Of a stretch of 51,695 nt of DNA, positions 32,652 to 51,307 are shown piece after piece. This stretch comes from Candidatus Bathyarchaeia archaeon (GTDB lineage: Archaea; Thermoproteota; Bathyarchaeia; Hecatellales; Hecatellaceae), in contig JAVZMI010000001.1 in assembly GCA_038883335.1 (NCBI GenBank), positions 1-51,695 of the forward strand, read 5' to 3'. Made by a program: the position numbers and the translations under genes. The notes beneath the pieces are model-generated. The model was not told the DNA's origin, ran no database searches, and saw only the letters and a list, made by a program, of their open reading frames with translations. The number at the start of each line of letters is the position of its first letter. Position 1 is the stretch's first letter.

Positions 32652-34736
32652 CTATATCTTCTTTATTTTACTCACGCCACCCACTTTCTCTACAAGAAAC
32701 TTCACCGGAGCCTTCTCAGCAAGTTCCGTAGAGTGGGTAACAATTATAATCTGGCTTATATTCTTCAGCCCAGATATTGCCGCTGAGAGTGCCTCTATGC
32801 TTCCATCCTCGCTCCCCAGAGATTCGGTTGGCTCATCAAGGATTAAAATGTCGAGACAATGACCAGTTCTGGCTTCGGTTACCAGTTGCCCTAAACCAAT
32901 CCTGTAGGCAAGGGCTAACCATGTTCTTTCACCCCCAGATATGAAGCTGGCATCCCGTATATGTCCAGCCGCTTCAGTGATAACGGGTGTATACTCGTTG
33001 TCAATAGTTAGGTGGAAGTTTCGTCCCGATTCGGCCATTAATGCATCAAGTTCTGACTGCACAGTATTTCTTAGCCCTTCGATGTATATGCTCCGTAGTG
33101 TTGGGGTGACATCCTTGTAAAGATTCCTTAGCTCCTTTACGAGCTTTACTATCTTCTCGACGTTTCCTTTCCTCTTCAGCTTCTCCTCAGCATTCCTGAG
33201 TCTCTTCTCGAGAGCTTCTAGGATAGTTCTTTTATCGCCAATTCTCCTCTCTTGGGACTGAATTCGCTCCACATACCACCTATACTTTAGGAGTGCATCT
33301 TCCCTAACTTTTCTGGCAGACTCGAGTGCTTCGATATTAAACCCAGCTATTCTGCTTTCAATAGATTTAAGCTCTAAAAGTTTTTCTCTGAGCGAGGTTT
33401 CCCTCTCTTCCACCTCGGTTTTTAACTCTGCCTCTCTGCGTTGGGCTGCTTCCAGATTTTCCTTGCAACTCCTAATTTGCATACCCAAATTTGTGATTTC
33501 GTTCATGGTTTCCTTGAAAGCATTGTATTGGGTTTCAAGTTTTTTCAGCTCCTGACTCAGTAGAGAAGTCTGCTGTTCGTAATCGTATATCTCACGCTTC
33601 AACTCCTCTGAGAGCTGATCTCTATAAGTGTATTCTAGAGCCCTACGGCATAATGGGCATACACTACTATCTTGAAGGGCTTGGAGGGTTGCCTTACTCT
33701 TCCTCTCCGCTGTTTGGAATTCAGTCATCCGCCGCCTAACATCAACTATTTTAGCCTCCAATTCGCCGGCAAGATGCGTCAGATCCTCCATAGTCTCCCA
33801 TTTAGTAGCGCCAAGCGATGCCAATCTTTTTATAGATCCGCCCTCAAGCTCGCCTAATTCATACAGCGAGTCCTTGATCCTCTTTACCTCTTGGGTTGCG
33901 TGAGTCAACTTAGTTTTCATAAGCTCTAAGGAAGCCTTGTTCTCAGCTATGCTAGCTGTAAGGGCAGATCTCTCCCTTGCCAACTCTGCAATTTGTTTCT
34001 CCTCGATCTCCAACTCCTTGAGCCTTGACTCAGCATCAAGGAGCTGCTTCTCCGCTGAACCTAAATCTATCTTCAATGTCTCAAGTTCGATCTGAAGATT
34101 CATTATTTCAATGGACAGCTCAGAATATTGCTTCTTCAAGTCTGCAATCCCTAGGACATCAGGGTCGCTCCCCAGAGTGTCCCTGACAGCCTCATATCCG
34201 CGCTGGTAGGGGAGGAGTTTATCCCAAGCCTTCTGGAAGTCCGACAGCCCGAAAATCTCATCGAGGATTCTCTGTCTCTCAGCTGGAGTTTTTATGAGGA
34301 GATCTTTGAGTTTCTCCTGTTGAATCCACACAAACTCCTCGAATACTCTCTTGTCGAGTCCCGTCAACTCCCGTAACTGTTCTTGAACAGCACCAGCTTT
34401 CCCCCAGGCTATCAGTTCGTCATCTTGGTAGAAGCGAAGTTCGCCCATGTCTTGGCTTATTCCGCCTCGTTCCCTTCGAAGCGTCCTTGTTATCTTGTAG
34501 ATCTTCCCCACATGTTCAAATTCGAGATAGACCTTGCCTGTATTCTCGCCTTCTCTGATGAGGTAGTCGTAGGATCGGTGAAGAGGCTCTCCGAATAGGG
34601 CGAAGTGAAGTGCGTAAAGGAGTGAGGATTTACCAGCACCCACCCCACCAACCACACAGTTGAAACCCTCTTCAAACACGATCTCAGAGAAGACGTGTGA
34701 TCTTATATTCGCGATACGGAGTTTTCGTAGTATCAA
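32652..34736 (-). CDS. rad50: DNA double-strand break repair ATPase Rad50 (short form)
   Basis: SMC-like ATPase partner of Mre11. Walker A GGVGAGKS is at residues about 31-38 and the Q-loop region at WIQQEKLKDLL. The zinc hook C360-P-L-C363 sits at the centre; the signature FISGGERTWLALAYRIG and Walker B ILILDEPTESLGSEDG with the H-loop VTHST are near the C terminus. At 694 residues it is well below the roughly 850-900 of Pyrococcus Rad50; the shortfall falls in the two coiled-coil arms, so the hook would stand closer to the head. Start overlaps the mre11 stop by 4 bases. Last gene of the ten-gene repair run. Confidence 0.95.
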   Translation of the reverse strand: MILRKLRIANIRSHVFSEIVFEEGFNCVVGGVGAGKSSLLYALHFALFGEPLHRSYDYLIREGENTGKVYLEFEHVGKIYKITRTLRRERGGISQDMGELRFYQDDELIAWGKAGAVQEQLRELTGLDKRVFEEFVWIQQEKLKDLLIKTPAERQRILDEIFGLSDFQKAWDKLLPYQRGYEAVRDTLGSDPDVLGIADLKKQYSELSIEIMNLQIELETLKIDLGSAEKQLLDAESRLKELEIEEKQIAELARERSALTASIAENKASLELMKTKLTHATQEVKRIKDSLYELGELEGGSIKRLASLGATKWETMEDLTHLAGELEAKIVDVRRRMTEFQTAERKSKATLQALQDSSVCPLCRRALEYTYRDQLSEELKREIYDYEQQTSLLSQELKKLETQYNAFKETMNEITNLGMQIRSCKENLEAAQRREAELKTEVEERETSLREKLLELKSIESRIAGFNIEALESARKVREDALLKYRWYVERIQSQERRIGDKRTILEALEKRLRNAEEKLKRKGNVEKIVKLVKELRNLYKDVTPTLRSIYIEGLRNTVQSELDALMAESGRNFHLTIDNEYTPVITEAAGHIRDASFISGGERTWLALAYRIGLGQLVTEARTGHCLDILILDEPTESLGSEDGSIEALSAAISGLKNISQIIIVTHSTELAEKAPVKFLVEKVGGVSKIKKI

Positions 34737-35941
34737 TTTTCAATAACGCCCTCAAGTATCGCTTTAACCTTTGGCTCCTCACCACTCAACAGAGGCTCCA
34801 GAAGGTCTATCGCGCATGTGGCAATTTTTTTCCCCTCCTCTTCACCCATCCGCTTCGAGAAGGCATCTAAGAAATAATTATAAGCGAGGGTTTTCAACTC
34901 ACGTGTCTCCCTGAGCTTTAAGGTTTTCTCCGCGGCAACTTCAATTAACTGGTTCAAAACCTTGACATATAGAGCCTTTTTCGGTATCGAGATAATCTTC
35001 GGAATATCTATTTGGCTCCTCTTCGCACTGGTTGGGAGTAGTCCCCTCAGAATAAGGATAATAACATCTCCCTCTCCGTCGTTCTCCGCAAGGAGGCGGC
35101 AAGCCTCTTCTGTTATCTTGTCCGGAAGCATACCTGAGAATTCTTTCTCTAATACTCTAAACGGCCTAGCGGACTCGTTCTTAATTCTCTCAACCTCTGG
35201 GGCTGTTTCGCGGTTACTGACCATCACATGGAAGAAGCCCTTCTCTGTATAGGCTTCATCATAAGATGTGGTCTCTAGGCAGCCGGGGTAAGCGAGAACT
35301 CCGCCCTTAAAGCTACAGCATACCGGCACATGCAGGTGGCCGCCAGCATAGTACTGGAAACCTTCCGGTATCTGGTCAACCCTTATCTCGGGTTGGATGC
35401 TCAATCTTAAGGAGGGAATTTTATCCACTGTTCCATGAAAGGCGAATATGTTAAAGAGGTCTGGGTGGGGTTTTGGCGGGGCTTTCTCATAATATTGGGG
35501 GAGCTTTTCATCCGCTTCCCTCAGTGAGCGGAAGTTTCGCAACCCATAAACATAACACTCATCATTACGCCAACATGCTCCCTCCAGTTTCGGCAGATAA
35601 ATGATTAAACCCGCATTATGCAACGGTATAAGAATAGTCCCAGTTATTACGTTCGGTTCCATGTCATGCGAACCCTCAACGGCGAGGACTGGTATGCCTG
35701 CCTCTCTGAGTTTCCTCAACACCCGCACAGCTGTAGCAAGAGTTGTGTTGGGTGGTCTGGGATTGTCAAACATGTCTCCCGAAATAATCACGAAACTAGG
35801 CTTCAATTTGAGAATCTTCTCTGCCGCTTCAATGAAGGCTTTTGAGAAGTCCTCTCGTCTCTCTATAAGATTGTATTGAGTATAACCAAGATGTAAATCA
35901 GCTAAATGAACAAAGCTGAAGGATCTCAGCGCGGAGCACAC
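34733..35941 (-). CDS. mre11: DNA double-strand break repair nuclease Mre11
   Basis: 402-residue Mn-dependent phosphoesterase that trims DNA ends with Rad50. Metal-binding motifs in order: D15-L-H17 in VHLADLHLGY, D56 in VIISGDMFDNPRPPN, the GSHD motif (usually GNHD; the Asn is replaced by Ser) near residue 94, AFHGTV in mid-protein and GHLHVP near residue 200. The C-terminal 180 residues contain the capping and Rad50-binding parts. It follows herA by 6 bases and overlaps rad50 by 4. The first metal-bridging Asn in GNHD is strongly conserved elsewhere, so the Ser deserves notice. Confidence 0.94.
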   Translation of the reverse strand: MCSALRSFSFVHLADLHLGYTQYNLIERREDFSKAFIEAAEKILKLKPSFVIISGDMFDNPRPPNTTLATAVRVLRKLREAGIPVLAVEGSHDMEPNVITGTILIPLHNAGLIIYLPKLEGACWRNDECYVYGLRNFRSLREADEKLPQYYEKAPPKPHPDLFNIFAFHGTVDKIPSLRLSIQPEIRVDQIPEGFQYYAGGHLHVPVCCSFKGGVLAYPGCLETTSYDEAYTEKGFFHVMVSNRETAPEVERIKNESARPFRVLEKEFSGMLPDKITEEACRLLAENDGEGDVIILILRGLLPTSAKRSQIDIPKIISIPKKALYVKVLNQLIEVAAEKTLKLRETRELKTLAYNYFLDAFSKRMGEEEGKKIATCAIDLLEPLLSGEEPKVKAILEGVIEN

Positions 35942-35947
35942 CCTCCA

Positions 35948-37480
35948 TCAGTATGCCACATGCTCCTCAATTTTAGGTTTCTTGATAGGTGCGTCTCCAC
36001 TCCTATAAGGAGTCATCCTCTGCCAGGCCTGCTTCGCCGAGACTATAGCTTTTTGGGGATATTCATCAACAGTGAGCTCAGCCACTACTGGGAAAGGCGT
36101 ATGAAGCGCTAAACCCCAAAGTAACACTTCATGGTCAGCCAGTCCTGGAAGAACATCCCTATACTTCTCACTTCCCTGCTCAGTATAGTTGAGGATGGCG
36201 TTTTGATCGTTTCCAGACTTCAATCTGAAGCAAGCTACGCTATTACACTGAGAGATTACGCTCTTTGCGACATATGCGGGCCTCTGAGTCATTACCACTA
36301 ACCCAACGTTATAACCTCCAGCCTGGCTGATAGCCTCTATGAATTTAGCCTTAACTTCGTCCTGCGCTATTGAAGGGGCTATCTCAAGGCCCTTCTCAGG
36401 TGCGAAGTATTGCGCCTCCTCAACGCAGATTATAACAGCGAAATCCCCTCGCCTTGCCATCGCGTGCCGCATTATCTTGTCGAAAATGTTCGCAGCCGTC
36501 AAATGTTGCGACTCGATGTCTCCGTCGGTTGAGAAGTCGATGATCAGGGTCGGAGTCTTCTCTACCTCCTCTAAAATGTCTAGAACTTCTCTGTGCTCGA
36601 AGAGGAAACTGCCTTCCTTGCTCAGCTTCTTCTCGATATACTGGTAACACCTATCCGCATCGCTCTCACGCTTATAGACGCTTTGAGCCTCCTCCTTTAC
36701 CCGCCCCAAAAGTTCTTCACGACTGAGATTACCAGCCGAGATGCTGTTCAACGCGGTCTCTAGGATCTTTGCATCTCTATCTTCGAGACCGAGCTTCTTG
36801 GCAGCAACTCTAGGACTGCAGCCTAACGGTATAAAACGGTTGTAGGGGACTATTCTCACCCCTGGGTACTTGGTGAGTGAGCCGTACTCGCGGCGTCGAT
36901 CGAAGATGATTAACCTTGGACGAGGGTTCAGTTTCGTAGATTTGACGGCTAGGTTTACGATGAAACTTGACTTTCCGGCGCGTGTCATCCCAGCAACTAG
37001 GATGTGAGATTTGGCCACAACATTGAGGTCGAGGTATACTGGAATATTAGTATCATGGACCTTTCCTATCTCAACGTATAGGCAGTCATTCTCCTTCTTA
37101 GCCATCCGGAAGAAACGGTCAAGTTCCTCCTCTGTAGGTTGGTATACCTCTGCACCCACATCCGGGGCAACCTCGAGCTGTCGCCACTTGCCTTTGCCAT
37201 CAAAGTATCCAGCCATCTCTGCATATGCGATGTGGCTTTCAAGATAGCGGCCCGTCTGGATTTTGATACCTTTCTGTGCAGTGAGTATCCCAGGCCGTCC
37301 AACCACCATCTCGGGGTTGTAGGGCTGAATAGAGTGGACGATCAAGAGCACGTCAGAGTTGTAAATTGGATGTTTTATGAAGTAGTAGTGGCCCACCTTG
37401 ACCCTCTCACCTTCGAGTATTACGAAGGCAGCCTCCTGATTTGTCACCCCCGTTATGAGGAATCCTATTACTTTACTCAC
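35948..37480 (-). CDS. herA: HerA DNA translocase/helicase (canonical copy)
   Basis: 510-residue hexameric FtsK/HerA-type ATPase that drives DNA through NurA during end resection. The HAS-barrel occupies residues about 1-110, Walker A GMTRAGKS is at 164-171, and the Walker B region is FAVIICVEEAQYFAP near residue 350, followed by the conserved MTQRPAYVAKSVISQCNS sensor block. The C-terminal brace region ends PFPVVAELTVDEYP. Overlaps the nurA stop by 8 bases and precedes mre11 by 6. Together nurA-herA-mre11-rad50 is the standard archaeal resection cassette. Confidence 0.95.
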   Translation of the reverse strand: MSKVIGFLITGVTNQEAAFVILEGERVKVGHYYFIKHPIYNSDVLLIVHSIQPYNPEMVVGRPGILTAQKGIKIQTGRYLESHIAYAEMAGYFDGKGKWRQLEVAPDVGAEVYQPTEEELDRFFRMAKKENDCLYVEIGKVHDTNIPVYLDLNVVAKSHILVAGMTRAGKSSFIVNLAVKSTKLNPRPRLIIFDRRREYGSLTKYPGVRIVPYNRFIPLGCSPRVAAKKLGLEDRDAKILETALNSISAGNLSREELLGRVKEEAQSVYKRESDADRCYQYIEKKLSKEGSFLFEHREVLDILEEVEKTPTLIIDFSTDGDIESQHLTAANIFDKIMRHAMARRGDFAVIICVEEAQYFAPEKGLEIAPSIAQDEVKAKFIEAISQAGGYNVGLVVMTQRPAYVAKSVISQCNSVACFRLKSGNDQNAILNYTEQGSEKYRDVLPGLADHEVLLWGLALHTPFPVVAELTVDEYPQKAIVSAKQAWQRMTPYRSGDAPIKKPKIEEHVAY

Positions 37481-38666
37481 TATGCCCCCTCCCTAGTCCC
37501 ATGTCTCTAAGGGCCCAGAGTTCGCCAAACTGTAGGGCGAAGACCTCTAACTCCTCAGGGGTTAGCTCTCCCTTCTTCACAAGTTCCATAGCCCGAGAGT
37601 AAATGGCTAATGTCCTCAGATTAGAAACCTCGTAAGAGATCTTTGTAAGCTGGTCCACCTCCCGAATCGCAAATGGCACACCATCTTCGTAAGCGGTTGA
37701 GTAAAGAACTGAAGCCACCCATGGCAAAGCGTTGAGGCAGTATCGCGGAAACTCAAGCCTGAAAGGTGTATAGTAGCCAGTACGAATGTATGCCGTGTAC
37801 AGATCGGTTATATCTTCCACCTCTTTACTGGTTAGGCCTAGTGCAATCGCTTTCTTCTTGTAGTCGCTTATGACTTCCATAAACTTTGGGTTCTCCTGTT
37901 CCCGTAGGGGTTTTGTGTAGCATCCAGGCATCAGTATGAAATTGAGGAGAGCAGTATCTCTCACCTTATCTAACCGCAGTTTCCGTGCGATTATGTTTGT
38001 ACGGGTTCTCTTCACAAAACCAACCACGGGTATCCCTGCCTTGTAACAAGTGCGAAGCATTTTAACTGCTTCCTCAACCGCTTCGGAGTAATCCTTCTTA
38101 AACCCTTGGGAGCCCTTGGCTTCAAGCTCTTTTAGCCTTGGGTGAAGAGCTAAGCTACCGTCTACTAGAGCTAGCTTTGGCTTATACTTCTCAACTCCTC
38201 TTCTGGTGACCTCGAACTGGAGTTTAAATGTTAGGAGAGATTCTCTCTGGGGTAGCCAAGCTTCGTTACTCCAGACTTCGGCTTCTTCTGGGATGCTGCA
38301 TAGGGGTGTTTCTTTAATCTCCCAACCCTCGGTCACTATTGCTGTTGCTGCGCAGAGGGGGAGAAAACCCATCCTTAAGTCGACACCTTTATTCCCAGCG
38401 TCTGAGGCTACCAGCCGTATATTCTCTTCTGAAGCGTTTTTATCACCTATACTCTCAACCTCCACTTGGCTCCTACACATCTCCAAGCTGCTTCTCAATA
38501 GCTCTAGGTGACCTTTGAGTTCCGCCACGAGTTTGTCCGCGCACTCGTGGACTATCTTCTCGTAAAGTAGAGGATGTATGGTTTCAGATGGGCTCTCGGG
38601 GGAGAGCATCTGAGAATATACCTCTCTTATAGCCTTCGGTATAGTTCCTCTCTCAGGTTCGTCCAA
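37473..38666 (-). CDS. nurA: NurA 5'-3' nuclease (canonical copy)
   Basis: Partner nuclease of HerA. RNase H-like NurA fold with catalytic residues Asp in LVASDAGNKG (about residue 89), Glu around FEVTRRG, Asp in LALVDGSLAL (about 169), Lys in VVGFVKRTRT (about 219) and Asp in RDTALLNF (about 237). A GTG at 38673-38675 is 3 codons upstream, but it overlaps the ribosome-binding site; the GGAGGTG at that point sits 6 bases before TTG 38664-38666, so TTG is the better start, giving 397 residues. 65 bases separate it from the upstream second HerA gene; transcription could read through or restart here. Confidence 0.93.
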   Translation of the reverse strand: MDEPERGTIPKAIREVYSQMLSPESPSETIHPLLYEKIVHECADKLVAELKGHLELLRSSLEMCRSQVEVESIGDKNASEENIRLVASDAGNKGVDLRMGFLPLCAATAIVTEGWEIKETPLCSIPEEAEVWSNEAWLPQRESLLTFKLQFEVTRRGVEKYKPKLALVDGSLALHPRLKELEAKGSQGFKKDYSEAVEEAVKMLRTCYKAGIPVVGFVKRTRTNIIARKLRLDKVRDTALLNFILMPGCYTKPLREQENPKFMEVISDYKKKAIALGLTSKEVEDITDLYTAYIRTGYYTPFRLEFPRYCLNALPWVASVLYSTAYEDGVPFAIREVDQLTKISYEVSNLRTLAIYSRAMELVKKGELTPEELEVFALQFGELWALRDMGLGRGHSE

Positions 38667-38731
38667 ACATATCACCTCCTTTTATCGTGCAGCCTCCTCT
38701 TAAATGAGAGAGTGCGATGAAAATACTCCGT

Positions 38732-40177
38732 TTAAGCGAAGAACCTCCTAGTTTCCCCCATAGCCTCGACATCTAACTGTTTCACCTTGATCACTATAGG
38801 GAGTTCACGTGTTGCCTGCCCCACTACCAAGCAGTGATGGGGCTCTAAGTTGCTGGCTATCAGCTTCATCGTTTCTTCATCAATCTTCGCGACAGTAGAT
38901 ACCGTGTCGAGGTCATGTCCGTTGCGAAGGTTAAAGACAAAGATCGAGTCTACCTGTCTATAGATGTCCTCAGGAATCGAGTCAGGCTGGTTTGTTATGA
39001 AGATTGTGAACAGTCCCAGATGCCGCATTCTAGTTACAATGTCCTCCCAGTAAGTCTCCCTTAAATACAAATGTGCCTCCTCGGCGAAGAGGAAGGCAGC
39101 CTTTAGCCGCCAACTTTTTAAGAGTTCAACAAGTTTACCTAACATGAACTCAACGACTATCCTTCTCACTACGCCAGATAGTCCACTCAGGTTCACTACC
39201 AACGCTCCACCCTGAGCCATCTTACCGAATGTCCCTTCCAAGGTATAGGTATATGTGGTATCATCAGTGAAGAAACCTGAACTTACCAGTGTATTATATC
39301 GAGAATAGATGGCCTCTCTCACGCTTTCATTGCAGCCCCAGTCTTCTATAGCTTCTCCAAGCTCCTCCAATGTCAGCAACCCTCTCCCCTCTAGGTGTCT
39401 CCATATCTGATAGAAGACTCGAGCTGAATTTCCGGGGAGACCGAGGGCATGGTTGAGAATGTCTAACATCACCGAAGAGCCCACATAGCCGAGTGTGACT
39501 TTGAAGTCGCGACAAGCCTCAAGTACAGTCACTCTGCCCCTTTGGTGGCTTCCGGAGCCAGCTCTGGAGCGGTCAAGATTTACATACTCGCCGTTCACGT
39601 CGAAGACGATGCAAGGAGCGCCATAGTCTATTAGCCCTAGGAGTAAAAGTTTAGATAGGTGCGACTTCCCAGTACCCTTTCTACCGACTATGATAGAGAG
39701 CCCTCCATCAAGGGCCTCAGCGTCAACTTCCACCTCAGAGCCTGATTTAGATACGCCAACCTCGATTGGGTGTCGCCCCCCTGACCCAATCATCTCAATT
39801 ACCTCACGTGTGTTCGCCACACGTATGATAGAAGAGGATCTAGAGGGTAGCCAAGAGATGTTGGTTGAGAGCCGTCCTCCTTCCAGTGAGCATCGGATCT
39901 TGCACACAATGAGCCTAGCATCTCTGAGGAGTATTATCTGAGAGTTAAGGCTGAGGGGGTCAATGTCATCACCGAAGGTTTGATCCTCCGCCACAGTCTC
40001 TCGGAGGAGGTCCTCCATTATCCCTGGAGGGTTCGCAAACTGGATGTCAAGCACCTGAACCAGTAAGCTCTTTCGCTCCTTCGGATCTTCAATAAGTAAA
40101 TAATCCCCCCTCTCCGCCCTCTCCTCAGAAAAGGAGAGAATGTGAAGGGTGTCGCCCTCCTTCCTGTAGAGCCGCAT
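38732..40177 (-). CDS. Second HerA-family ATPase (divergent)
   Basis: HerA/FtsK-superfamily ATPase distinct from the copy at 35948. ATG at 40177 overlaps the upstream nuclease gene's TAA by 1 base (TAATG) and gives 481 residues; an ORF start 35 codons earlier would overlap that gene by 106 bases and is rejected. N-terminal HAS-like barrel (LHILSFSEERAERGDYLLIED), Walker A GRKGTGKS at residues 165-172, VFDVNGEYVNL strand, Walker B AAFLFAEEAHLYL at about 360-370 and a sensor block TIFITNQPDSIPEDIYRQVDSIFVF. All ATPase elements look intact. It is the last of six co-oriented, overlapping genes whose other members are four winged-helix paralogs and a second NurA-like nuclease. Confidence 0.9.
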   Translation of the reverse strand: MRLYRKEGDTLHILSFSEERAERGDYLLIEDPKERKSLLVQVLDIQFANPPGIMEDLLRETVAEDQTFGDDIDPLSLNSQIILLRDARLIVCKIRCSLEGGRLSTNISWLPSRSSSIIRVANTREVIEMIGSGGRHPIEVGVSKSGSEVEVDAEALDGGLSIIVGRKGTGKSHLSKLLLLGLIDYGAPCIVFDVNGEYVNLDRSRAGSGSHQRGRVTVLEACRDFKVTLGYVGSSVMLDILNHALGLPGNSARVFYQIWRHLEGRGLLTLEELGEAIEDWGCNESVREAIYSRYNTLVSSGFFTDDTTYTYTLEGTFGKMAQGGALVVNLSGLSGVVRRIVVEFMLGKLVELLKSWRLKAAFLFAEEAHLYLRETYWEDIVTRMRHLGLFTIFITNQPDSIPEDIYRQVDSIFVFNLRNGHDLDTVSTVAKIDEETMKLIASNLEPHHCLVVGQATRELPIVIKVKQLDVEAMGETRRFFA

Positions 40178-41235
40178 TATGCGTTCTCCCCTCTTCCAAA
40201 GGGGCCAAATAGCATTCTCCTTAATGGTTGAGTCCTTGAGGGGAGTAGGCCATAATTCTTTACTAGGAAGCGTTGAAGGCATATGATCTCGGTGGGAGTA
40301 AAGAAGGAGAGGATGTGAGCCAGTCTGAGAGTTTCAGGGTAGCCCTGAGCCATTATATCGTTGCCAGCTAGTCTACTGACAGCCTCTACAGCCTCTCGTA
40401 GTGTGAGTCGCTTATCTACGTCGATCCTGAACCCGTAACCTCCAAACGTCAACTTCCCTACGAAGATTCTGCCAAGTAGCCTGAGAGGTTTAGCGCTTTC
40501 TATTAAGCCGTCCATGTCGACCAAACAGGGCGATTGCGAGTTTTCTGATAGTGACGTTATGCCTTTATGTAGTGAGCTTAGACATGTATCCTTTGAGATG
40601 GCTATGGTATTGTTTCTGTTAATGGTAGCTTGTTCCAGTATCTCCATAAGCGCACTATGATCGCTGGATGTGACAGTCGCCAGACATCCGTCGAAAAGGA
40701 CTATAGCATCCTTCGCCGATCGGCAAATGTAATGTTGCAACCTTCTTTCAAGAAAGTTCTGTGCCCTACATACCGGAGTATAATTGCGAAGTTCACTTCG
40801 TGGTCCAGTGTAATCATTCACACGCCCAGACTGTGCATCGTAGAAGTTTGAGGTTGTATTCCTCACATGGATGAGGTACGGGCCAAATCGGAGGTAGCGG
40901 TAAGCATACCCTTCCCTCCAAGTAATCGTACCACGAAGAGCGTAAATCGTACCCTTACTAGTCCAACCTATGTTCCTACTTGAGGTATCCACCGCCGCCA
41001 CAGTTGAGCCGTCACAGATTGGTTTAAGTATACTCAAACGTTCTTGGAGGTTGCTTAGAACTGCGCCACATTTTGAATACCAGTCGATTGAATTAGGCCG
41101 AGCTTCAGAGTCTTCCCATATGAGACGCTCATAGTGGAACGGTTCGAAGCTCTCGCCGTAGATTTCATCAAGAGAAAGGGCGCCAATCCGGGTAAGTTCC
41201 TCTGATAGGTTGGATTTGGCTTGGGTGCCTATCAA
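40177..41235 (-). CDS. Second NurA-like nuclease (divergent)
   Basis: 352-residue protein with a NurA-type RNase H fold. The acidic and basic residues expected in the active site are all present: D83 (VAAVDTSSRNIGW), E163 (FLERRLQHY), D182 (IVLFDGCLA), K215 (TIAISKDTCL) and an Asp near 240 (CLVDMDGL). The spacing is similar to canonical NurA, but the overall sequence differs strongly from the copy at 37473, so this is an old paralog, not a recent duplicate. Start overlaps the upstream winged-helix gene by 4 bases and its stop touches the ATG of the second HerA, implying a matched translocase-nuclease pair. Confidence 0.82.
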   Translation of the reverse strand: MIGTQAKSNLSEELTRIGALSLDEIYGESFEPFHYERLIWEDSEARPNSIDWYSKCGAVLSNLQERLSILKPICDGSTVAAVDTSSRNIGWTSKGTIYALRGTITWREGYAYRYLRFGPYLIHVRNTTSNFYDAQSGRVNDYTGPRSELRNYTPVCRAQNFLERRLQHYICRSAKDAIVLFDGCLATVTSSDHSALMEILEQATINRNNTIAISKDTCLSSLHKGITSLSENSQSPCLVDMDGLIESAKPLRLLGRIFVGKLTFGGYGFRIDVDKRLTLREAVEAVSRLAGNDIMAQGYPETLRLAHILSFFTPTEIICLQRFLVKNYGLLPSRTQPLRRMLFGPFGRGENA

Positions 41236-41708
41236 CGAGTCTCCACCTCCGTTGAAGGTTGGGCAGTATACACAAATCCTTCCCTAGTCTTCCACCTGCG
41301 TACCTTCTGTCTTCTCGTAAGCCTTGTAAGGGTGAAACCTATGACACGCCTAGAGTAGTGTAGAGCGTTAGCCTCGAGCGCCGCCATAATTTCTGATAGG
41401 GCTCGAGGTTTCCTCCGTCCCCACTCCGTCGACAATAACGCTATGATGGCATCGGAACAGCTCTCCGCATGAATTGATGGGTATGCTTCAGCCTCCTCGA
41501 ATTCTGGTGTCATCTGTGTTAAGGAGGTTTCTAGTCTCTTACCGTCCGAGGTTGGGGTGCTGGGAATTTTTGAGATTACCTTATATATGGCTTCGATTAA
41601 CCGGGGCAGATCCGCCTCGATCATGCTAAGTATTGTTTCCCTTGACCCCTCTACCTGAAACTCGTTTCCATCTATTTTGAGGCGGATTGTGATCTTACCT
41701 TCACTCAT
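41232..41708 (-). CDS. Winged-helix paralog 4 of the HerA2-NurA2 operon
   Basis: 158-residue protein, no named family recognised. It shares with its three upstream neighbours the N-terminal module I-x-L-K-I-D-G-N-E-F-Q-V-E-G-S-x3-(I/V) (residues 6-25), a short beta-beta-alpha unit. The middle is more divergent and Ser/Thr/Pro-rich (SKIPSTPTSDGK, residues 45-60). The C-terminal 70 residues look like a winged helix (DAIIALLSTEWGRRKPRALSEIMAALEANALHYSRRVIGFTLTRLTRRQKVRRWKT), with a strongly basic wing. Overlaps paralog 3 and the NurA2 gene by 4 bases each. Likely DNA-binding; regulator or DNA adaptor of the system. Confidence 0.72.
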   Translation of the reverse strand: MSEGKITIRLKIDGNEFQVEGSRETILSMIEADLPRLIEAIYKVISKIPSTPTSDGKRLETSLTQMTPEFEEAEAYPSIHAESCSDAIIALLSTEWGRRKPRALSEIMAALEANALHYSRRVIGFTLTRLTRRQKVRRWKTREGFVYTAQPSTEVETR

Positions 41709-42223
41709 TGGCAGTTTCCTTCTCTCTCTTTTATTTTACGAGAAGTTTCAAGAACTCCCTTTAGACAGAGGGGTGTAGCTCTATACACTCCTCTCCCAAC
41801 AACCTCGAGGAGCCCCTTTTCTCTCATTCGAGAAATCTCCTTCGAGAGAGTACCAGCCTTAACGCCCAAGGCATCCGTTAAATAGTTAGGTGCAAGAGTA
41901 TCTCTCTCAGTTATCTTAAGTTGGCCGCCAATGTATGCTCCAGCCAACAATAAGGAGATCCGATCCTTGAGAGTCAGCTCTCCGTTTGTGAGGGGGACGG
42001 GGCCAGTTGGCTGGATAGCTACGAGTCCTTCAAGTGCCTCTGCCGCTCCTCTGAGGTCTACGGCTACCATGAGCCTTGACGCCAGTTCAAGCGTTGGTAT
42101 ACTCTTCTTGATGAAATCCATAAAGCCTGAGAATACATCATCTGGAGTACCTTCCATATCCACTCTGAACTCGCCGTACTCCAGGTGTACCTTCAATCTG
42201 TTTGAGTAGTTGTGATTAATCAA
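41705..42223 (-). CDS. Winged-helix paralog 3 of the HerA2-NurA2 operon
   Basis: 172-residue protein. N-terminal module: LKVHLEYGEFRVDMEGTPDDVFSGFMDFIKK (residues 10-40). Central helices follow (LASRLMVAVDLRGAAEALEGLVAIQPTGPVPL), with the shared motif alanine-leucine-x-G-(L/V)-V that links the four paralogs. The C-terminal winged helix is clear: LTDALGVKAGTLSKEISRMREKGLLEVVGRGVYRATP, a helix-turn-helix followed by a basic-glycine wing. Gap of 5 bases to paralog 2 and overlap of 4 with paralog 4. The helix-turn-helix resembles IclR/MarR-like sequence-specific readers, but the first 90 residues are specific to this set. Confidence 0.75.
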   Translation of the reverse strand: MINHNYSNRLKVHLEYGEFRVDMEGTPDDVFSGFMDFIKKSIPTLELASRLMVAVDLRGAAEALEGLVAIQPTGPVPLTNGELTLKDRISLLLAGAYIGGQLKITERDTLAPNYLTDALGVKAGTLSKEISRMREKGLLEVVGRGVYRATPLCLKGVLETSRKIKEREGNCQ

Positions 42224-42228
42224 CTTCC

Positions 42229-42753
42229 CTATCCCTCGCCCTTTATCTCTCTCTTTATTTTTGGCAGAGCGTCCTCTTGAAATCGTGTGATGCCGATTGT
42301 TGTTATCTTATATTCACCGCGGCCTACACGCGCGACAAGTCCTTCATCAACCATTACACTGAGACCTCCCGTCAATGTCCCAATCTTACCCCCAATTGAG
42401 GTGAGAAGTTCATCCACCGTCAGAGTATTCTTTGCCAGCTTGCCTGCGATGTGACCGAGATACGCCTTAACTAAGTGAAGCGATATCAGATCTTTAATGT
42501 TCAATTTGAGCAACTTATCCCTAGGGGTTGCTACCACAACCCCCTCCTCAGTGAATGCGATCACACCTTCAACATCTCTCATAAGCCTCTCAAGATCAAC
42601 AGTTAACATTAGGCCTTTGACGAGTTCGTAGGCCGGATAGATCTCTGTTATGTAGTTCATTAGAGCCTTCATCACCTCGCTGGCTGACCCTTCAAAGTCA
42701 GCCTTGTTGTCTCCGAACTCTACGTGGATCTTCAAGTGGGGGTTTGAACTCAC
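42229..42753 (-). CDS. Winged-helix paralog 2 of the HerA2-NurA2 operon
   Basis: 174-residue protein with the same plan: N-terminal LKIHVEFGDNKADFEGSASEVMKALMNYI (residues 7-35), helix pair around VKGLMLTVDLERLMRDVEGVIAFTEEGVVVATPRDKLLKLN, and C-terminal winged helix LTVDELLTSIGGKIGTLTGGLSVMVDEGLVARVGRGEYKITTIG. The segment GVIAFTEEGVVVATPRDKL is closely matched by GVVDFTREGTVITVPRDRL in paralog 1, the strongest visible evidence of common ancestry. Start overlaps paralog 1 by 4 bases. Function unknown. Confidence 0.75.
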   Translation of the reverse strand: MSSNPHLKIHVEFGDNKADFEGSASEVMKALMNYITEIYPAYELVKGLMLTVDLERLMRDVEGVIAFTEEGVVVATPRDKLLKLNIKDLISLHLVKAYLGHIAGKLAKNTLTVDELLTSIGGKIGTLTGGLSVMVDEGLVARVGRGEYKITTIGITRFQEDALPKIKREIKGEG

Positions 42754-43220
42754 GGTGAACCAACTCCGCCACTCAACTTTCTCAGAAGATTCTCAACGAA
42801 CACGCGACCAGTAGCTGTAAGCTTGTATGAGCCGGCATCCTTCAATATCAGGGCTTCACTCCTAAGCTCACTGATCCTCGCCCCATATCCTGGTGATAAG
42901 CGCCCGGAGTTCGCCATTAGCCTTGCTATCTCCCTCGGCTGGAGGGGGTTTGGCTCATTAGCATAGAGGAGGAGGCATATCGCCTCTTTGTCGCTGAGTC
43001 TATCTCTCGGGACAGTTATGACAGTGCCTTCCCTAGTGAAGTCGACCACTCCTTTAAGTGCCTCTTTGGCGGGTATAGGAACTTCTGGCTTTGAGAGGAG
43101 TCCGTCGAGTACTGTGAGCCACTCTGGAAATGATCTTAAAGTGTTAACTAGATTCTCGAAGTTCTCTTCCTCTATGGTTACCTCTCCATAAGATCGTTTA
43201 ACTGTCAGCTTTACTGTCAA
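42750..43220 (-). CDS. Winged-helix paralog 1, first gene of the HerA2-NurA2 operon
   Basis: 156-residue protein; first gene of the operon, directly behind the inverted-repeat promoter. N-terminal module LTVKRSYGEVTIEEENFENLVNTLRSF, a central GVVDFTREGTVITVPRDRLSDKEAICLLLYANEP segment, then a C-terminal winged-helix-like domain LQPREIARLMANSGRLSPGYGARISELRSEALILKDAGSYKLTATGRVFVENLL, in which the second helix carries SPGYGARISELRSE. Being first in the operon and DNA-binding by prediction, it is a natural candidate for autoregulation through the 19-bp operator, but that is inference. ATG start. Confidence 0.75.
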   Translation of the reverse strand: MTVKLTVKRSYGEVTIEEENFENLVNTLRSFPEWLTVLDGLLSKPEVPIPAKEALKGVVDFTREGTVITVPRDRLSDKEAICLLLYANEPNPLQPREIARLMANSGRLSPGYGARISELRSEALILKDAGSYKLTATGRVFVENLLRKLSGGVGSP

Positions 43221-43310
43221 GATCTCTCACTCTGAATCAGCTTCCGAGCCTTATAAAGTTTACGTATTATCTACGTAATATGACGAACCGTAATTTCACG
43301 TAATAAAAAG
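43221..43310 (-). promoter_or_regulatory. Promoter and operator region of the HerA2-NurA2 operon
   Basis: On the minus strand a TATA-like CTTTATAAGG (about 43249-43258) lies about 30-40 bases before the ATG of the first gene. Immediately upstream at 43260-43278 is a perfect 7-bp inverted repeat with 5-bp spacer (plus strand TTACGTA-N5-TACGTAA). Further ACGTAAT-like half sites follow in one orientation: ACGTAAT at 43273-43279 (part of the repeat), ACGAACC at 43283-43289 (weak), CCGTAAT at 43288-43294 and ACGTAAT at 43298-43304, spaced 10 or 15 bases apart. The TATA box abuts the repeat, so a bound protein could block or assist TBP/TFB loading. The rest of the 204-base gap to gatE shows no gene. 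Confidence 0.6.
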
Positions 43311-43424: not shown

Positions 43425-45353
43425 TTAGCTGGACCTACCATCTTGTTGCTGCTTCGCCTTGAGAGATTCAATTTTTTCCTTAACTTTTCTGGCTACTACT
43501 CCTGCGTCAACTCTCCCTCTAACCTCGGCCATAATAATCTTCATAAGCAGGTTGAATGCCTCATAAGGTTTATCTCTTAACAGCTGAAGGTTCTCACTTG
43601 CACGCCTATCCACAAGCGTCTGAATCTCGTTCACACTCAACATCTTAACGCCTAGCTTCTCTATAGCTTCAAGAGGCGAGCCTCCGTTCTTAGCTAACCA
43701 CCCAGCTACCTCGGCGAAGCTCTCTTTAGCCATGCGTCCCTCCTCTATCAGACGGAAAGTTTCATAGAGTTGCTCCTCGGTGAGGTTTTCGACTGGAACA
43801 CCCTGCCTTTCAAGGCTCTTCACAACCTCTGTGAGGGCTGTAGCCAAGAAGGTTGAGGGGATATTTGTCGTAGATGCAACCTTCTCAAATAAAGTAAGAT
43901 AGTCTGAATCAATCAGCTGCTCTGCCAGCTTCTTGTTGACGCTATACTCAGACATCAGCCGGTTTGCCAACTGTTCAGGCAATGGTGGAAGAGTGCCCCT
44001 GAGTTTGTGGAGATGTTGAGGGGTTACGACTACGGGCAGAACGTCCGTTTCAGGATACATCCGAGCTGCACCTGGGCGGGGGCGCATATACCTCGTTGTG
44101 CCGTCTAAGAGCGCTGCTCTCGTCTCCTCAGGCACACCTTTAACTGCTTCAATAGCCCTCTCCACAACCGCTCTCAATGCCTCCGTCGCATTATCCAGCT
44201 TGTCGGCTACTAGAACCCCGGCGTCTAAATCTGAGAGATCGAGCTTCGACCTTAAGGCAGCCGTCTCAGCCTCGGTGATCCCGTAGGCTGGCAGTTCATC
44301 AGTGTGGAAGATCCCGCCGACTTTGCCCCAGAATTTCGCTCTATCAGCCATCTCTGTGCCAAACCTTACGTTCGGCTCGAGCTCAACCTTAAGAATCTCA
44401 GCGAAGCCTGGGAGCTTGACAGCTAACGCTACACCCCCCTCTCCCAAGGCTTTCCTTATGACTCGGCTCTCAGAGTTGCGGAAGACATCCGTTACATCTA
44501 CAGGCTTTACTTCAAGCTGAGACCCTGAGACTCCTCGCCTCAGCAGCTCCTCCCTGATTTTTAAGAGGGCCAGCTGCCTTCCTACCTCAAACTCTATGAC
44601 TTTGGGGATTAGTTCGAGTTTCTGGACGCCTTTGACCTCCACCAGAGCGCCTTCTCTTATCGAAATGTTGAGATCCTGTCTTATCGTTCCGATCCCTCTC
44701 TTAACCATTCTCGTAGCTCTTAAAACACGACCTATGACCAATGCAACTTCTCCAGCCTCGACGGGCGTGTGGATGTCCGGAGCTGTTGTGACCTCTATTA
44801 GGGGTATTCCTAGACGGTCGATGCGGTAAGTAGTAGTGAATCCTCTTTCCTCAACCTTCCTAGCCGCATCCTCCTCCAGACAGATAGTCTGGATGGCTAT
44901 CTCTCTGCCGCCAACCGATATCGAACCCCCTAGCGCAATCACACAGGTCCTCTGGAAACCGCTTGTGTTTGAACCGTCTACGACGATCTTCCGCATGACA
45001 TGGATCTCGTCAACCGGCTTTGCCCCTAGGAGAAGGGCTACTTGGAGGCATACATCTACGGCTTGTGGGTTCAGTTCATGAGGCGGCTCCTCATCCATCT
45101 CAACCAGACAAGAGGTATCACAATCCGCCTCATAGATGATAGTGCGTCCCTTCTGAAACTCGAAGAGGGCCGCAGGGTCGGTTTGTCCCAGCTCGCTCTG
45201 AGTTGGCCGAAGTCTTCTAACAAATCTGAACTTAGGTTCCCCTTTAGAGAGGCGTGTTGGGCAGTTGCAAAATAGCTTATGTGCTGTATCCAGTTGTTGA
45301 TGTATCTCGAGTCCAACCCTAAGGCCTACCGCCTCTGTATCAGTGCGCAACAT
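43425..45353 (-). CDS. gatE: Glutamyl-tRNA(Gln) amidotransferase subunit E
   Basis: 642-residue archaeal GatE, which phosphorylates Glu-tRNA(Gln) and transfers ammonia received from GatD to make Gln-tRNA(Gln). Cradle domain: LRVGLEIHQQLDTAHKLFCNCPT (residues 10-32) and the ATP site near LVEMDEEPPHELNPQ; RTCVIALGG and EVTTAPDIHTPVEAGEVALVIGR follow. The middle carries the AspRS-like GAD insertion (FAEILKVELEPNVRFGTEMADRAKFWGKVGGIFHTDELPAYGI), which distinguishes GatE from bacterial GatB. The C-terminal helical YqeY-like tail binds the tRNA elbow. Start overlaps the gatD stop by 14 bases. The organism is expected to lack a glutaminyl-tRNA synthetase. Confidence 0.96.
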   Translation of the reverse strand: MLRTDTEAVGLRVGLEIHQQLDTAHKLFCNCPTRLSKGEPKFRFVRRLRPTQSELGQTDPAALFEFQKGRTIIYEADCDTSCLVEMDEEPPHELNPQAVDVCLQVALLLGAKPVDEIHVMRKIVVDGSNTSGFQRTCVIALGGSISVGGREIAIQTICLEEDAARKVEERGFTTTYRIDRLGIPLIEVTTAPDIHTPVEAGEVALVIGRVLRATRMVKRGIGTIRQDLNISIREGALVEVKGVQKLELIPKVIEFEVGRQLALLKIREELLRRGVSGSQLEVKPVDVTDVFRNSESRVIRKALGEGGVALAVKLPGFAEILKVELEPNVRFGTEMADRAKFWGKVGGIFHTDELPAYGITEAETAALRSKLDLSDLDAGVLVADKLDNATEALRAVVERAIEAVKGVPEETRAALLDGTTRYMRPRPGAARMYPETDVLPVVVTPQHLHKLRGTLPPLPEQLANRLMSEYSVNKKLAEQLIDSDYLTLFEKVASTTNIPSTFLATALTEVVKSLERQGVPVENLTEEQLYETFRLIEEGRMAKESFAEVAGWLAKNGGSPLEAIEKLGVKMLSVNEIQTLVDRRASENLQLLRDKPYEAFNLLMKIIMAEVRGRVDAGVVARKVKEKIESLKAKQQQDGRSS

Positions 45354-46719
45354 AACTCTCCTCAGCTGGGTTTAATCTAGGGCTGAACTCACCTGCGATG
45401 TTGGTGAGAAGGCGCCGCTTAACTTCCTCCGGATAGGTTGTCTGACCGAATATCCACATCATCTTGACGAGAGCTGTCTCAGGTAACATATCACCTAAAG
45501 GCACAACTCCAAGCTTTAAGAGGTCCCTTCCAGTCTCGTATACTGCCATGTTAACTCTTCCCCAGATGCACTGAGAGGTCATGGCTACGACGATTCCCCT
45601 CTTAACGGCCTCTTCTATGACCTTGAAGTAGCTCTCCCCAATGTGGCCTAAGCCTGTCCCTTCTATCACTATCCCTAAGTATCTTTGATCTATCAGCCAC
45701 TCAAAAATGGTTGGTTGGATGCCAGGATAGACTTTGAGGAGGTAAACTTTCTCGTTGAAGTTGTGCTCTAATTTCAGTTTCCTGTTAGGATCCCTGGGGT
45801 TGAAGTTGGAAGTTAGCATGGTAATCTTTCTGTCGACAACCCGAGCTAGGGGTCCGGCGTTAACGGATCTGAAGGCGTACCTGCAGCTTGTATGGCATTT
45901 CCTAACCTTAGTCCCGCGGTGGATTACGGTCGAATCATCTGAGCTTCCTTCATGCATAGCCACGCCCACCTCAGCGAATGGTGCTGAGGCTGCAGCATTC
46001 ACGGCACCCATGAGGTTCATCGCGGCGTCTGTGCTAGGTCTATCCGAAGATCGCTGAGAGCCGACCAATATAACAGGGACTGGTAGGTTTCGAAGCGCAA
46101 AACTAAGGGCTGCTGCAGTGTAACCCATAGTATCTGTTCCATGCGCCACAACTACTCCCGAGGCGCCCTCTTCTATATGCTTCGCCACAGCTTCAGCAAT
46201 TCTACTCCAATGTTTTGGGGTTATGTTCTCGCTTAGGAGGCTGAATAAGATCTCAGCTCTTATCCGTGCTATTTTTGAAAGTTCCGGGATCACACTGTAA
46301 AGGTCCTCAGCTGTCAAGGCTGGGTTTACAGCTCCGGTTCGATAGTCTACCCTGCTGGCTATAGTGCCTCCAGTGCTAACTATAGCTACGGGGGGTAGCT
46401 CCGGTGTCTCCGCTGGGGGTTTAGGTGGGATAAACGCTGGCTTTGAGCCAGGGCTGACGAATTCGATATGTGTGTGGGCCGTCACTAATATTCCTGTGTT
46501 ATAGCCGCTTTTGAGCTTGAGGACTATGCATTCAGGGTTTCCCAGCTCCATCCGCGGCATCAATACACCCTCATAAATTCCACCATCTTTCTTAACTCTG
46601 ATCACATCACCGACCCTAACTCTCTTATCCTCCAGTAATTTCAGGGCTCTCCCTTTATACCCACTCAACTCTTCCGTCCTCTTCATCCCCCAAAATTTTC
46701 GAGAGGTATGGCCCATCAT
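45340..46719 (-). CDS. gatD: Glutamyl-tRNA(Gln) amidotransferase subunit D
   Basis: Up to 459 residues. N-terminal small beta-barrel (RVRVGDVIRVKKDGGIYEGVLMPRMELGNPECIVLKLKSGYN) followed by an L-asparaginase-like domain that releases ammonia from glutamine for GatE. Active-site threonines are in VSTGGTIASRV and in the VVAHGTDTMGYTAAAL segment, with VILVGSQRSSDRPSTDAAMNL downstream. The ATG at 46719 overlaps elp3 by 65 bases; an ATG 11 codons later at 46686 (KRTEELSGY) aligns better with known GatD N termini and still overlaps by 32 bases. Overlaps gatE by 14 bases. Confidence 0.95.
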   Translation of the reverse strand: MMGHTSRKFWGMKRTEELSGYKGRALKLLEDKRVRVGDVIRVKKDGGIYEGVLMPRMELGNPECIVLKLKSGYNTGILVTAHTHIEFVSPGSKPAFIPPKPPAETPELPPVAIVSTGGTIASRVDYRTGAVNPALTAEDLYSVIPELSKIARIRAEILFSLLSENITPKHWSRIAEAVAKHIEEGASGVVVAHGTDTMGYTAAALSFALRNLPVPVILVGSQRSSDRPSTDAAMNLMGAVNAAASAPFAEVGVAMHEGSSDDSTVIHRGTKVRKCHTSCRYAFRSVNAGPLARVVDRKITMLTSNFNPRDPNRKLKLEHNFNEKVYLLKVYPGIQPTIFEWLIDQRYLGIVIEGTGLGHIGESYFKVIEEAVKRGIVVAMTSQCIWGRVNMAVYETGRDLLKLGVVPLGDMLPETALVKMMWIFGQTTYPEEVKRRLLTNIAGEFSPRLNPAEESYVAH

Positions 46720-49396: not shown

Positions 49397-51307
49397 ATGA
49401 GATCACTCAAAGGTTTGTTAATTTTCCTAATCACCATAATACTCCTAACGTCCTCTAGTTTTCAGGCAACACCCTCAAGCCGCTACCTACTCCACGCTAA
49501 TCGCATTTTCAGCGATATAGTTGGAGTTTATGCCACCGACGTAACAAACCAACCACCTGGAGGTGCAAATGAAACTACCGCTATGCTTTCCCAGATGATG
49601 AGCCGCGTTGAAAACATCAGAGGTTTAAAATTTCTAGAGGCCGTGCGTGTTGAATCCATCAGCCGAAGCGAGTACGCCAACCAATACCGTGGCGAGACGA
49701 CGAGTGTCTCCGAAGAGTTTTGGGAGCTAGCTCAGCAAGAGTATGAAGCATTATACCTTCTAGAGGAGGGTGTAAGCGCACGAAGCGAGTCTGAGTCATT
49801 CTATACAGCAGCAATTCTCGGCTTTTATGACGCAGACAAAGATGAGATAGTTCTCGTAGATAGCTTAGAGGAGCTGGATGAGGGAACCTTAGCTCATGAG
49901 TTGGCTCATGCCCTCATAGACCAGTACTACCCTCAGACCTTTGGTTTCTCTTCAAACCTCACCGATGAGTCTTTCGCTGTATACGCGCTCTTGGAAGGTG
50001 ACGCGTGCCTCGTAGAGGCAGAGTACCGAGAGAGTTTCATGGATCAGGGTACTGGCGGCGGCGTTATTGGAAGCCGTACAATAGCTCATCTTCCCGGCTT
50101 CACTGTGATTCAAATATTCCCCTACCTAGAGGGTGTAAACTTCGTATCGCAGCTTAGAAAGCTTAAAGGCGGATGGTGGGGTGTAAACCGCGTCTATGAT
50201 GGCTTGCCACAAAGCACGGAGCAGATAATCCATGTTGAACGTTATGGAACTGACTTCCCTACAGAGATTATAGTACCTGATAGAGTATCAGAAGGTTGGA
50301 GGCTCTTGGGGAGAGACACCCTAGGCGAGTTTGCAATATTCACAATGTTTCTCGACAAGAATCAAGTGCATGCATCCATTAACAAGCTGACCAGAACTCC
50401 TACCTACTCCTCGCCGCTATCTGATGGTTGGGATGGTGACGATATGGCTGTCTATAAGAATAGTGAAGGGCTGTATGGCTACGTATGGCAGATCATCTGG
50501 GATTCAGAGAGAGATGCAGAGGAGTTCATAATTGGCTATGAGGACATGCTCCTCGATATGGGCGCAACACTGGCAGAAGGTATATGGCGGATTGACTCGA
50601 ACGACTTCGTAAAAATTTGGCGTGAGGGAAGGGTTACATGTATCGTCAACGGTCCAACTCCGGAGGAGATCTCCGAGATATACCCGCCTAGGAAGCCGGT
50701 CTATTACAACGTTACATTCAACGCTCCAGACGGCGTCGATTTAGTCATAGATGATGTAACCTACAATTCACATGATCTGCCGGTCTCCTTCCTATGGCAG
50801 GATGGCTCTATCCACACCTTCGCGACGCCGCAGAAGGTGGCAGTTGGCGAGAGGGTCCGATGGGCCTTTCTGCGCTGGGATGACGGCTCCGATGCAACTG
50901 AGAGGGCGGTAACCGTTGACCGTGCGTATAGTTACAATGTTACATTCAAACTCCAATATTATCTCCAAATAGAGTCACCTTACGGTGACCCTACAGGTGA
51001 AGGGTGGTACGACGCTGGTACGTTAGCTAATATATCGGTTACTAGCCCCTACGGTCCATCTGGGCGTTATGTCTTCACTGGATGGAGCGGTGATTTAACA
51101 GCAGCTTCAACCAATGCAACAGTTTTAATGGATTCACCTAAGAGAGTGGTTGCCAATTGGGGTCACGAGTATACGCAGGTATTCACCATAGTTCTCCCGG
51201 TCGCTGTGGCTCTTGTGGCTGTCCTCAGCATCTTTTTAACCATTAAGCGTAAAACAATAAAGGCACCTCAAATCGTCAATAAAGGTGGCAACCTAACTAT
51301 AGATTGA
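49397..51307 (+). CDS. Secreted, membrane-anchored HExxH metalloprotease-like protein
   Basis: 636 residues. Residues 1-25 are a signal peptide (KGLLIFLITIILLTSSS). Residues about 30-430 are an extracellular domain with the zinc motif H167-E-L-A-H171 in TLAHELAHALIDQYY and a candidate third ligand E200 in VYALLEGDACLVEAEY, 29 residues on, a gluzincin-like spacing. From about 435 two beta-rich modules with Y-N-V-T-F and FTGWSGD-type motifs resemble the bacterial InlB/Flg_new repeat (YNVTFNAPDGVDLVI, WLQIESPYGDP-like YLQIESPYGDP). A transmembrane helix (about 595-615) and basic tail KRKTIK end it, anchoring the protein outside the cell. Several N-x-S/T sequons (NETT, NLTD, NVTF) fit an archaeal glycoprotein. 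Confidence 0.85.
   Translation: MRSLKGLLIFLITIILLTSSSFQATPSSRYLLHANRIFSDIVGVYATDVTNQPPGGANETTAMLSQMMSRVENIRGLKFLEAVRVESISRSEYANQYRGETTSVSEEFWELAQQEYEALYLLEEGVSARSESESFYTAAILGFYDADKDEIVLVDSLEELDEGTLAHELAHALIDQYYPQTFGFSSNLTDESFAVYALLEGDACLVEAEYRESFMDQGTGGGVIGSRTIAHLPGFTVIQIFPYLEGVNFVSQLRKLKGGWWGVNRVYDGLPQSTEQIIHVERYGTDFPTEIIVPDRVSEGWRLLGRDTLGEFAIFTMFLDKNQVHASINKLTRTPTYSSPLSDGWDGDDMAVYKNSEGLYGYVWQIIWDSERDAEEFIIGYEDMLLDMGATLAEGIWRIDSNDFVKIWREGRVTCIVNGPTPEEISEIYPPRKPVYYNVTFNAPDGVDLVIDDVTYNSHDLPVSFLWQDGSIHTFATPQKVAVGERVRWAFLRWDDGSDATERAVTVDRAYSYNVTFKLQYYLQIESPYGDPTGEGWYDAGTLANISVTSPYGPSGRYVFTGWSGDLTAASTNATVLMDSPKRVVANWGHEYTQVFTIVLPVAVALVAVLSIFLTIKRKTIKAPQIVNKGGNLTID

Follow-up and report, generated by a model that had tools for sequence, protein, structure and literature searches.

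Why should an archaeon that already has one HerA-NurA pair keep a second, and why should the second be preceded by four small winged-helix genes? The question is raised by the stretch of DNA analysed here, 51,695 nucleotides of contig JAVZMI010000001.1 from a Candidatus Bathyarchaeia archaeon (assembly GCA_038883335.1; hereafter the window), in which six minus-strand genes, W1-W2-W3-W4-NurA2-HerA2, occupy positions 43220-38732 according to the list of open reading frames and our reading of the sequence. The answer that we favour, at a probability of about 0.55, is that the module is an ancient second end-processing machine with a partner family, the W proteins, that includes its own autoregulator. 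This explanation builds on the observed gene content, catalytic residues, conservation, co-occurrence and operator-like arrays, which are taken up in turn below.

A sequence-only reading of the same DNA had described six same-strand genes that overlap by one to four bases and are interrupted by one five-base gap, closed by a second HerA-NurA pair. Both descriptions hold: all the open reading frames are where they were said to be, and the pair is backed by family matches and conserved catalytic residues. W1/W2, W3/W4 and W4/NurA2 each overlap by 4 bases, NurA2 and HerA2 overlap by 1 base (TAATG at 40177), and the 5 bases between W2 and W3 are the operon's sole gap. The longest frame for HerA2 would begin at 40282 and encode 516 residues; we rejected that start because the overlap with nurA2 would then be 106 bases long, and because the orthologs align from the first methionine of the 481-residue form (ATG at 40177).

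HerA2 (38732..40177) is a candidate hexameric ATPase of a divergent HerA type. It matches Pfam DUF87 (PF01935) with an E-value of 7.7e-11 and 42.9 bits (cut-off 23.2), and so has the central domain with Walker A and Walker B motifs that marks the HerA family. A HerA2 profile aligns with the HerA of S. solfataricus (4D2I) at an E-value of 3e-15 over most of its length (profile positions 118-474). Among the HerA2 orthologs aligned, the Walker A GxxxxGKS and the FAEEAH-type Walker B are invariant, and a YRQxD stretch is conserved too. As to the HAS beta-barrel, another mark of the family, the N-terminal 110 residues are conserved (GDYLxIED...LLVQVIDxQF) and have no match in the library. In a tree of 78 rows, HerA2 forms one clade (support 100/100) on a branch of 3.14 substitutions, apart from the window HerA1 and from the Mre11-linked HerAs; long branches were flagged elsewhere in this tree, making the placements among the other rows less sure. 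W genes are linked to 46 of the 51 rows of the clade. HerA2 is very divergent from HerA1 of the adjacent pair, just as NurA2 is from NurA1. HerA2 scores far below the NCBI equivalogs for 'DNA double-strand break repair helicase HerA' (24.7 bits against 970 for NF040819 and 23.8 against 800 for NF040937), which the window HerA1 fails as well.

NurA2 (40177..41235, 352 residues) is predicted to be a divergent NurA-type nuclease. Residues 78-307 match the NurA domain (PF09376) at 23.1 bits, with a cut-off of 21, and in 20 orthologs D83, D182, Y299 and H307 are invariant and E163 nearly so, which accounts for both the acidic residues and the C-terminal YPxxLxxAH motif of the family. A profile search of the PDB was marginal (2ygk, E-value 0.65), and hhalign aligned NurA2 with the profile of NurA1 and NurA3 over one 56-column stretch and nothing else; the NurA1/NurA3 profile, for its part, found no NurA structure in its search.

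What, then, are the four genes upstream? They encode W1 (42750..43220, 156 residues, TTG start), W2 (42229..42753, 174 residues, GTG start), W3 (41705..42223, 172 residues, TTG start) and W4 (41232..41708, 158 residues). A single iterative profile, built up from close relatives, finds every one of them, at E-values of 3e-29 to 3e-51, and the four are true paralogs. In a tree of 53 members the family divides into the subfamilies W1, W2, W3-like and W4/W4', where W4' denotes the divergently transcribed kin of W4 found in other genomes. Each subfamily is spread across several families of archaea, and the paralogs are therefore older than the split of those families; the W3 of the window, a paralog of W2, is fast-evolving and weakly placed. 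Single chains of W2 and W4 were modelled with AlphaFold2, at a mean predicted local distance difference test score of 89.4 and a predicted template modelling score of 0.71 for W2, and of 83 and 0.55 for W4. The two models have a common plan, an N-terminal beta-beta-alpha unit followed by a C-terminal winged helix. The earlier proposal of four related proteins built in this way is thus upheld by the shared profile and by the fold common to the two that were modelled. Its central segment, G(V/L)(V/I)xFTxEGxVxxxPRD, fared less evenly: it is predicted to form a beta-hairpin in proteins of the W1/W2/W3 type, is seen as an extra central hairpin in the W2 model, and is missing from W4.

W1, W2 and W4 have no significant Pfam family, and W3 narrowly passes that of the AbiEi_4 winged helix-turn-helix (26.7 bits, cut-off 25); despite this match, no AbiEii toxin gene is linked, as an AbiE toxin-antitoxin system would have it. 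When the W2 and W4 folds were compared with the PDB, and that of W2 with viral models, the matches were generic winged helices alone, none at an E-value of 1e-3 or below, the best being winged-helix transcription regulators.

The module is far from peculiar to this genome. Most of the Bathyarchaeia relatives tested have a HerA2, at 45-59% identity, and the same gene order is seen in tens of genomes, where NurA2 is 28-40% and HerA2 38-57% identical, a conservation that we judge to be far above chance. The best 80 HerA2 loci in the named collection are nearly all labelled Bathyarchaeota, and NurA2 also occurs in other Thermoproteota (Nitrososphaeria-like genomes). Archaeal amoA is present in six of the genomes tested, which are therefore ammonia oxidisers; most of these have the order (gatD-gatE)-W-W4'(divergent)-nurA2-herA2, in which W4' is preceded by one or two W genes, G346 being an exception in that no W was found there. 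The module usually adjoins gatDE, which in the window lies upstream of it as a conserved neighbour (gatE-gatD, 43425..46719, minus strand). Thus the genes are kept together across genomes, and the four diverged paralogs are retained as an operon across deep lineages, as the sequence-only reading had supposed. Taken together, the distribution marks the module as a conserved part of the chromosome that has been passed on mostly by vertical descent in Bathyarchaeia and Nitrososphaeria-like genomes.

Such a distribution bears directly on the idea, offered earlier as one option, that this is a defence system, in which HerA2-NurA2 would degrade invading DNA while the W proteins sense or regulate. 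HerA-plus-nuclease modules do occur in defence, and the PADLOC mad8 and HerA models match HerA2 at an E-value of 5e-20. The mad8 match, however, is confined to the ATPase core, and HerA2 reaches 37.1 bits against the 800-bit cut-off of the antiphage HerA equivalog. Mostly vertical, near class-wide spread and housekeeping neighbours (gatDE, Mre11-Rad50) also speak against defence, as do the viral contigs, which hold no HerA2 and distant ATPases alone (24-35% identity), and the Pfam-scanned neighbours, among which there are no other defence genes. We regard the defence option as unsupported and unlikely.

How tightly do the W proteins belong to the pair? W genes are present in 36/36 NurA2-bearing genomes of a 160-genome sample and in 69/72 further NurA2-bearing genomes, or 105/108 overall. 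The three without W (G009, G228 and the amoA-bearing G346) form one HerA2 subclade. The source genome of the window holds exactly four W-family members, all in this operon, and for this reason, together with the near-complete co-occurrence with NurA2, we rejected the notion that they are ordinary transcription factors that adjoin the operon by accident. More telling still is the behaviour of the family where the pair itself is replaced. The gatDE/W locus of four Bathyarchaeia families that have no HerA2 holds a different pair, which we named HerA3/NurA3; in G022, for example, W1-W2/3-W2/3-W4 precede it. Elsewhere in the phylum, in G046, W genes adjoin a pair of the HerA1/NurA1 type. Since W cassettes accompany these pairs too, the family tracks the HerA-NurA function and not one sequence. 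The swap is the strongest evidence that the W proteins work with HerA-NurA, and we read W as a dedicated HerA-NurA partner family.

Some observations on these other loci may be recorded here. Several HerA3-type loci have tiny winged-helix proteins of 83-120 residues, divergent between W1 and nurA3 (L127:8991-10480, L129:7931-9002 and similar), two of which are winged helix-turn-helix proteins by Pfam. G054 (C1:926482-927924; L203:14468-15949) has a HerA, 29% identical to HerA3 and related to it, beside a NurA (PF09376, E-value 2.9e-25) outside any W cassette; the same genome also has HerA2 and two Mre11-linked HerAs. Finally, some Bathyarchaeia are without NurA2, and several of these keep a single W, which in G200 (L222:8786-9256) and G039 (L140:7912-8409) is a W1 beside gatDE. 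Lone W1 genes of this kind suggest a role for W1 that is independent of the motor.

A regulatory role is indicated by the promoters. The intergenic region between the divergent W4' and nurA2 holds conserved TTGnnCA arrays, which in many Bathyarchaeia take the form of a palindrome, GTTGTnCATGnACAAC, next to the TATA box. Across the W4'-nurA2 regions of 68 Bathyarchaeia and 13 other loci, TTGnnCA/TGnnCAA elements average 4.4 per region, compared with 0.3 after mononucleotide shuffling and 0.18 in the sequence upstream of gatD, a figure that describes an enrichment and is no independent test, the motif having been read from the regions in which it was counted. The enrichment holds in Bathyarchaeia and in the other group alike. 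An independent check is provided by the 14-bp operator core: of the NurA2-bearing Bathyarchaeia genomes searched, three (G012, G309 and G273) have it in exact form, and in these it is found solely at the W4'-nurA2 promoter. The core also occurs once each in the amoA-bearing G216 (C1:32083-32096) and G363 (C1:1318961-1318974), away from the module. Lineages without W4' have TTACGT/AACGTT elements at the W1 promoter instead, enriched in most, not all, such promoters. In the window, a TATA-box-like TTTATAAG (43250..43257, minus strand) stands about 37 nt ahead of the W1 start codon, and directly upstream of it lies a perfect, operator-like inverted repeat, TTACGTA-N5-TACGTAA with GATAA as its spacer (43260..43278, minus strand), the sole perfect copy in its genome. 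The helix-turn-helix of W4' is the most conserved segment of the W family (mean consensus 0.73, against 0.45-0.60 in others) and is recognisably retained in the group outside Bathyarchaeia. Because of the operator arrays at W promoters, the genome-unique repeat of the window and this conserved helix-turn-helix, at least one W protein is probably the operon's autoregulator.

The local character of these sites matters for another proposal, in which HerA2-NurA2 would be a chromosome-segregation or dimer-resolution motor that replaces FtsK in archaea and the W proteins would be site-recognition factors like the gamma domain of FtsK. Winged-helix sequence readers guide FtsK. HerA is indeed FtsK-like, and archaea are without FtsK (PMC12977600). 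Yet the operator-like sites are local and not genome-wide, no linked recombinase or conserved genomic repeat was found, and a nuclease partner is needed here that FtsK systems lack. We consider this proposal very improbable.

A more serious contender takes up the loader model of the sequence-only reading. Here W1-W4 would be stoichiometric subunits of the motor and would form a winged-helix collar, hetero-oligomeric in make-up, able to recognise DNA ends or junctions and to load or gate HerA2-NurA2. It would explain why four distinct orthologous subfamilies stay in one operon across deep lineages, why W accompanies NurA2 almost throughout, and why it persists when HerA-NurA is swapped for another subfamily; in addition, loading and regulation of HerA-NurA are still open questions (PMC9960219, PMC12977600). 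On the other side, the best folds of W are transcription regulators, operator-like arrays lie at W promoters, W1 persists without NurA2, and HerA2-NurA2 does without W in the three genomes named above. We therefore hold the subunit model as a tentative second choice; W1-W3 may act as loaders, though this is neither the only nor the best-supported reading of them.

Turning to the function of the pair itself, a repair-type role, also among the options first raised, gains support from the genes downstream. In the window, the NurA1-HerA1-Mre11-Rad50 operon (32652..38675, minus strand) comes next after HerA2, at a distance of 56 bases. In 15 of the 80 named loci, mre11, usually mre11-rad50, lies downstream of herA2, some of them showing mre11 alone. 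Two genomes of the same family as the window (G001 and G003) have Mre11-Rad50 after HerA2 with no HerA1/NurA1 between, the linkage recurs in G031, and in G346 nurA2-herA2-mre11-rad50 form one run, no other NurA being detected there. HerA2-NurA2 is thus probably a second DNA-end-processing translocase-nuclease, and the module a DNA-repair machine. Going by established work on HerA-NurA, a HerA2 ring would use ATP to pump duplex DNA into a NurA2 dimer, which would cut it, most likely in double-strand-break repair with Mre11-Rad50. The W proteins would be the dedicated winged-helix partners of this machine. One or more of them would bind operators at the module's own promoters and control its expression, a role that would fall to W4' in genomes where that gene is divergently transcribed and probably to W1 or W4 in the window; W1-W3 would act with this autoregulator as co-regulators or DNA-binding accessory subunits.

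Several points weigh against this favoured explanation. First, most genomes keep HerA2 away from Mre11-Rad50. Second, NurA2 is so divergent that its assignment as a catalyst draws on a weak Pfam match (23.1 bits) and on conserved residues. Third, we infer that a W protein, and not another factor, binds the operators, and the shared origin of motif and counts has been noted above. Fourth, four co-transcribed paralogs exceed the needs of one promoter. In a bolder reading, the W proteins would be both a multi-subunit, DNA-reading collar on the HerA-NurA motor and the transcriptional control of that motor, and the whole would parallel, in archaea, the regulated resection machines of bacteria. Were this so, the same subunits would detect DNA ends or damage and would determine how much of the nuclease is made as well as how active it is; we regard the combination as speculative and rather doubtful.

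Some further features of the window and of other loci may be added. The window Mre11 (34733-35941) is of a type that is about 50% identical among Bathyarchaeia, but its identity to the Mre11 proteins found in ammonia oxidisers and in G269 is only about 26-35%, so that two Mre11 types exist within Bathyarchaeia. A second NurA2-like open reading frame lies between herA2 and mre11 in L057. A RadA/Rad51-type recombinase gene (11013-12056) is about 21 kb from the repair operons of the window, and an open reading frame of 636 residues (49397-51307) has no Pfam match at 1e-5.

The wider interest lies in questions openly debated in archaea, namely how HerA-NurA is loaded and regulated, and how it comes to make 3' overhangs instead of cutting both strands (PMC12977600, PMC9960219); a recent study found that both strands are cut by the complex of T. 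kodakarensis, and that regulation is unclear (PMC12977600). A family that stays with HerA-NurA in two large archaeal groups, even where the pair itself has been replaced, supplies concrete candidates. Conserved operator arrays also suggest that a repair-type operon is under a local transcriptional switch in these archaea, and the presence of W-HerA2-NurA2 in amoA-bearing genomes may make the system testable in cultivated ammonia oxidisers.

The module may be compared with the systems it resembles. No published description of the W-HerA-NurA set was found in the literature searched, in agreement with the earlier statement that no system of this make-up was known, and PMC4158269 mentions other HerA-like and winged helix-turn-helix genes only. 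The catalytic half is best classed as a divergent module of the already known HerA-NurA type, and the whole as a new form of something known, whose interest lies in the W partner family. With HerA defence modules (HerA plus effector; MADS mad8), the pair has in common a HerA-like ATPase with a nuclease, and differs in being a vertical core module with housekeeping neighbours, no other defence components in view and scores far under the equivalog cut-offs. Like regulators of the MarR, ArsR and BlaI types and the winged helix-turn-helix of the AbiEi antitoxin, the W family combines a C-terminal winged helix with palindromes beside a TATA box and a divergent regulator-target layout (W4'-nurA2); unlike them, it has an additional N-terminal beta-beta-alpha domain with no PDB match at an E-value of 1e-3 or below, comes as up to four co-operonic paralogs, and is tied to HerA-NurA. 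A further close system is the archaeal HerA-NurA end-resection complex that works with Mre11-Rad50, in which, too, a HerA-type ATPase gene overlaps a NurA-type gene, the catalytic residues are kept, and a gene for Mre11(-Rad50) lies downstream in part of the lineages. In contrast to that complex, HerA2-NurA2 has a HerA from a separate deep clade and a nuclease near the detection limit of the NurA family, is furnished with dedicated W genes and operator arrays, and coexists in this genome with another HerA-NurA pair.

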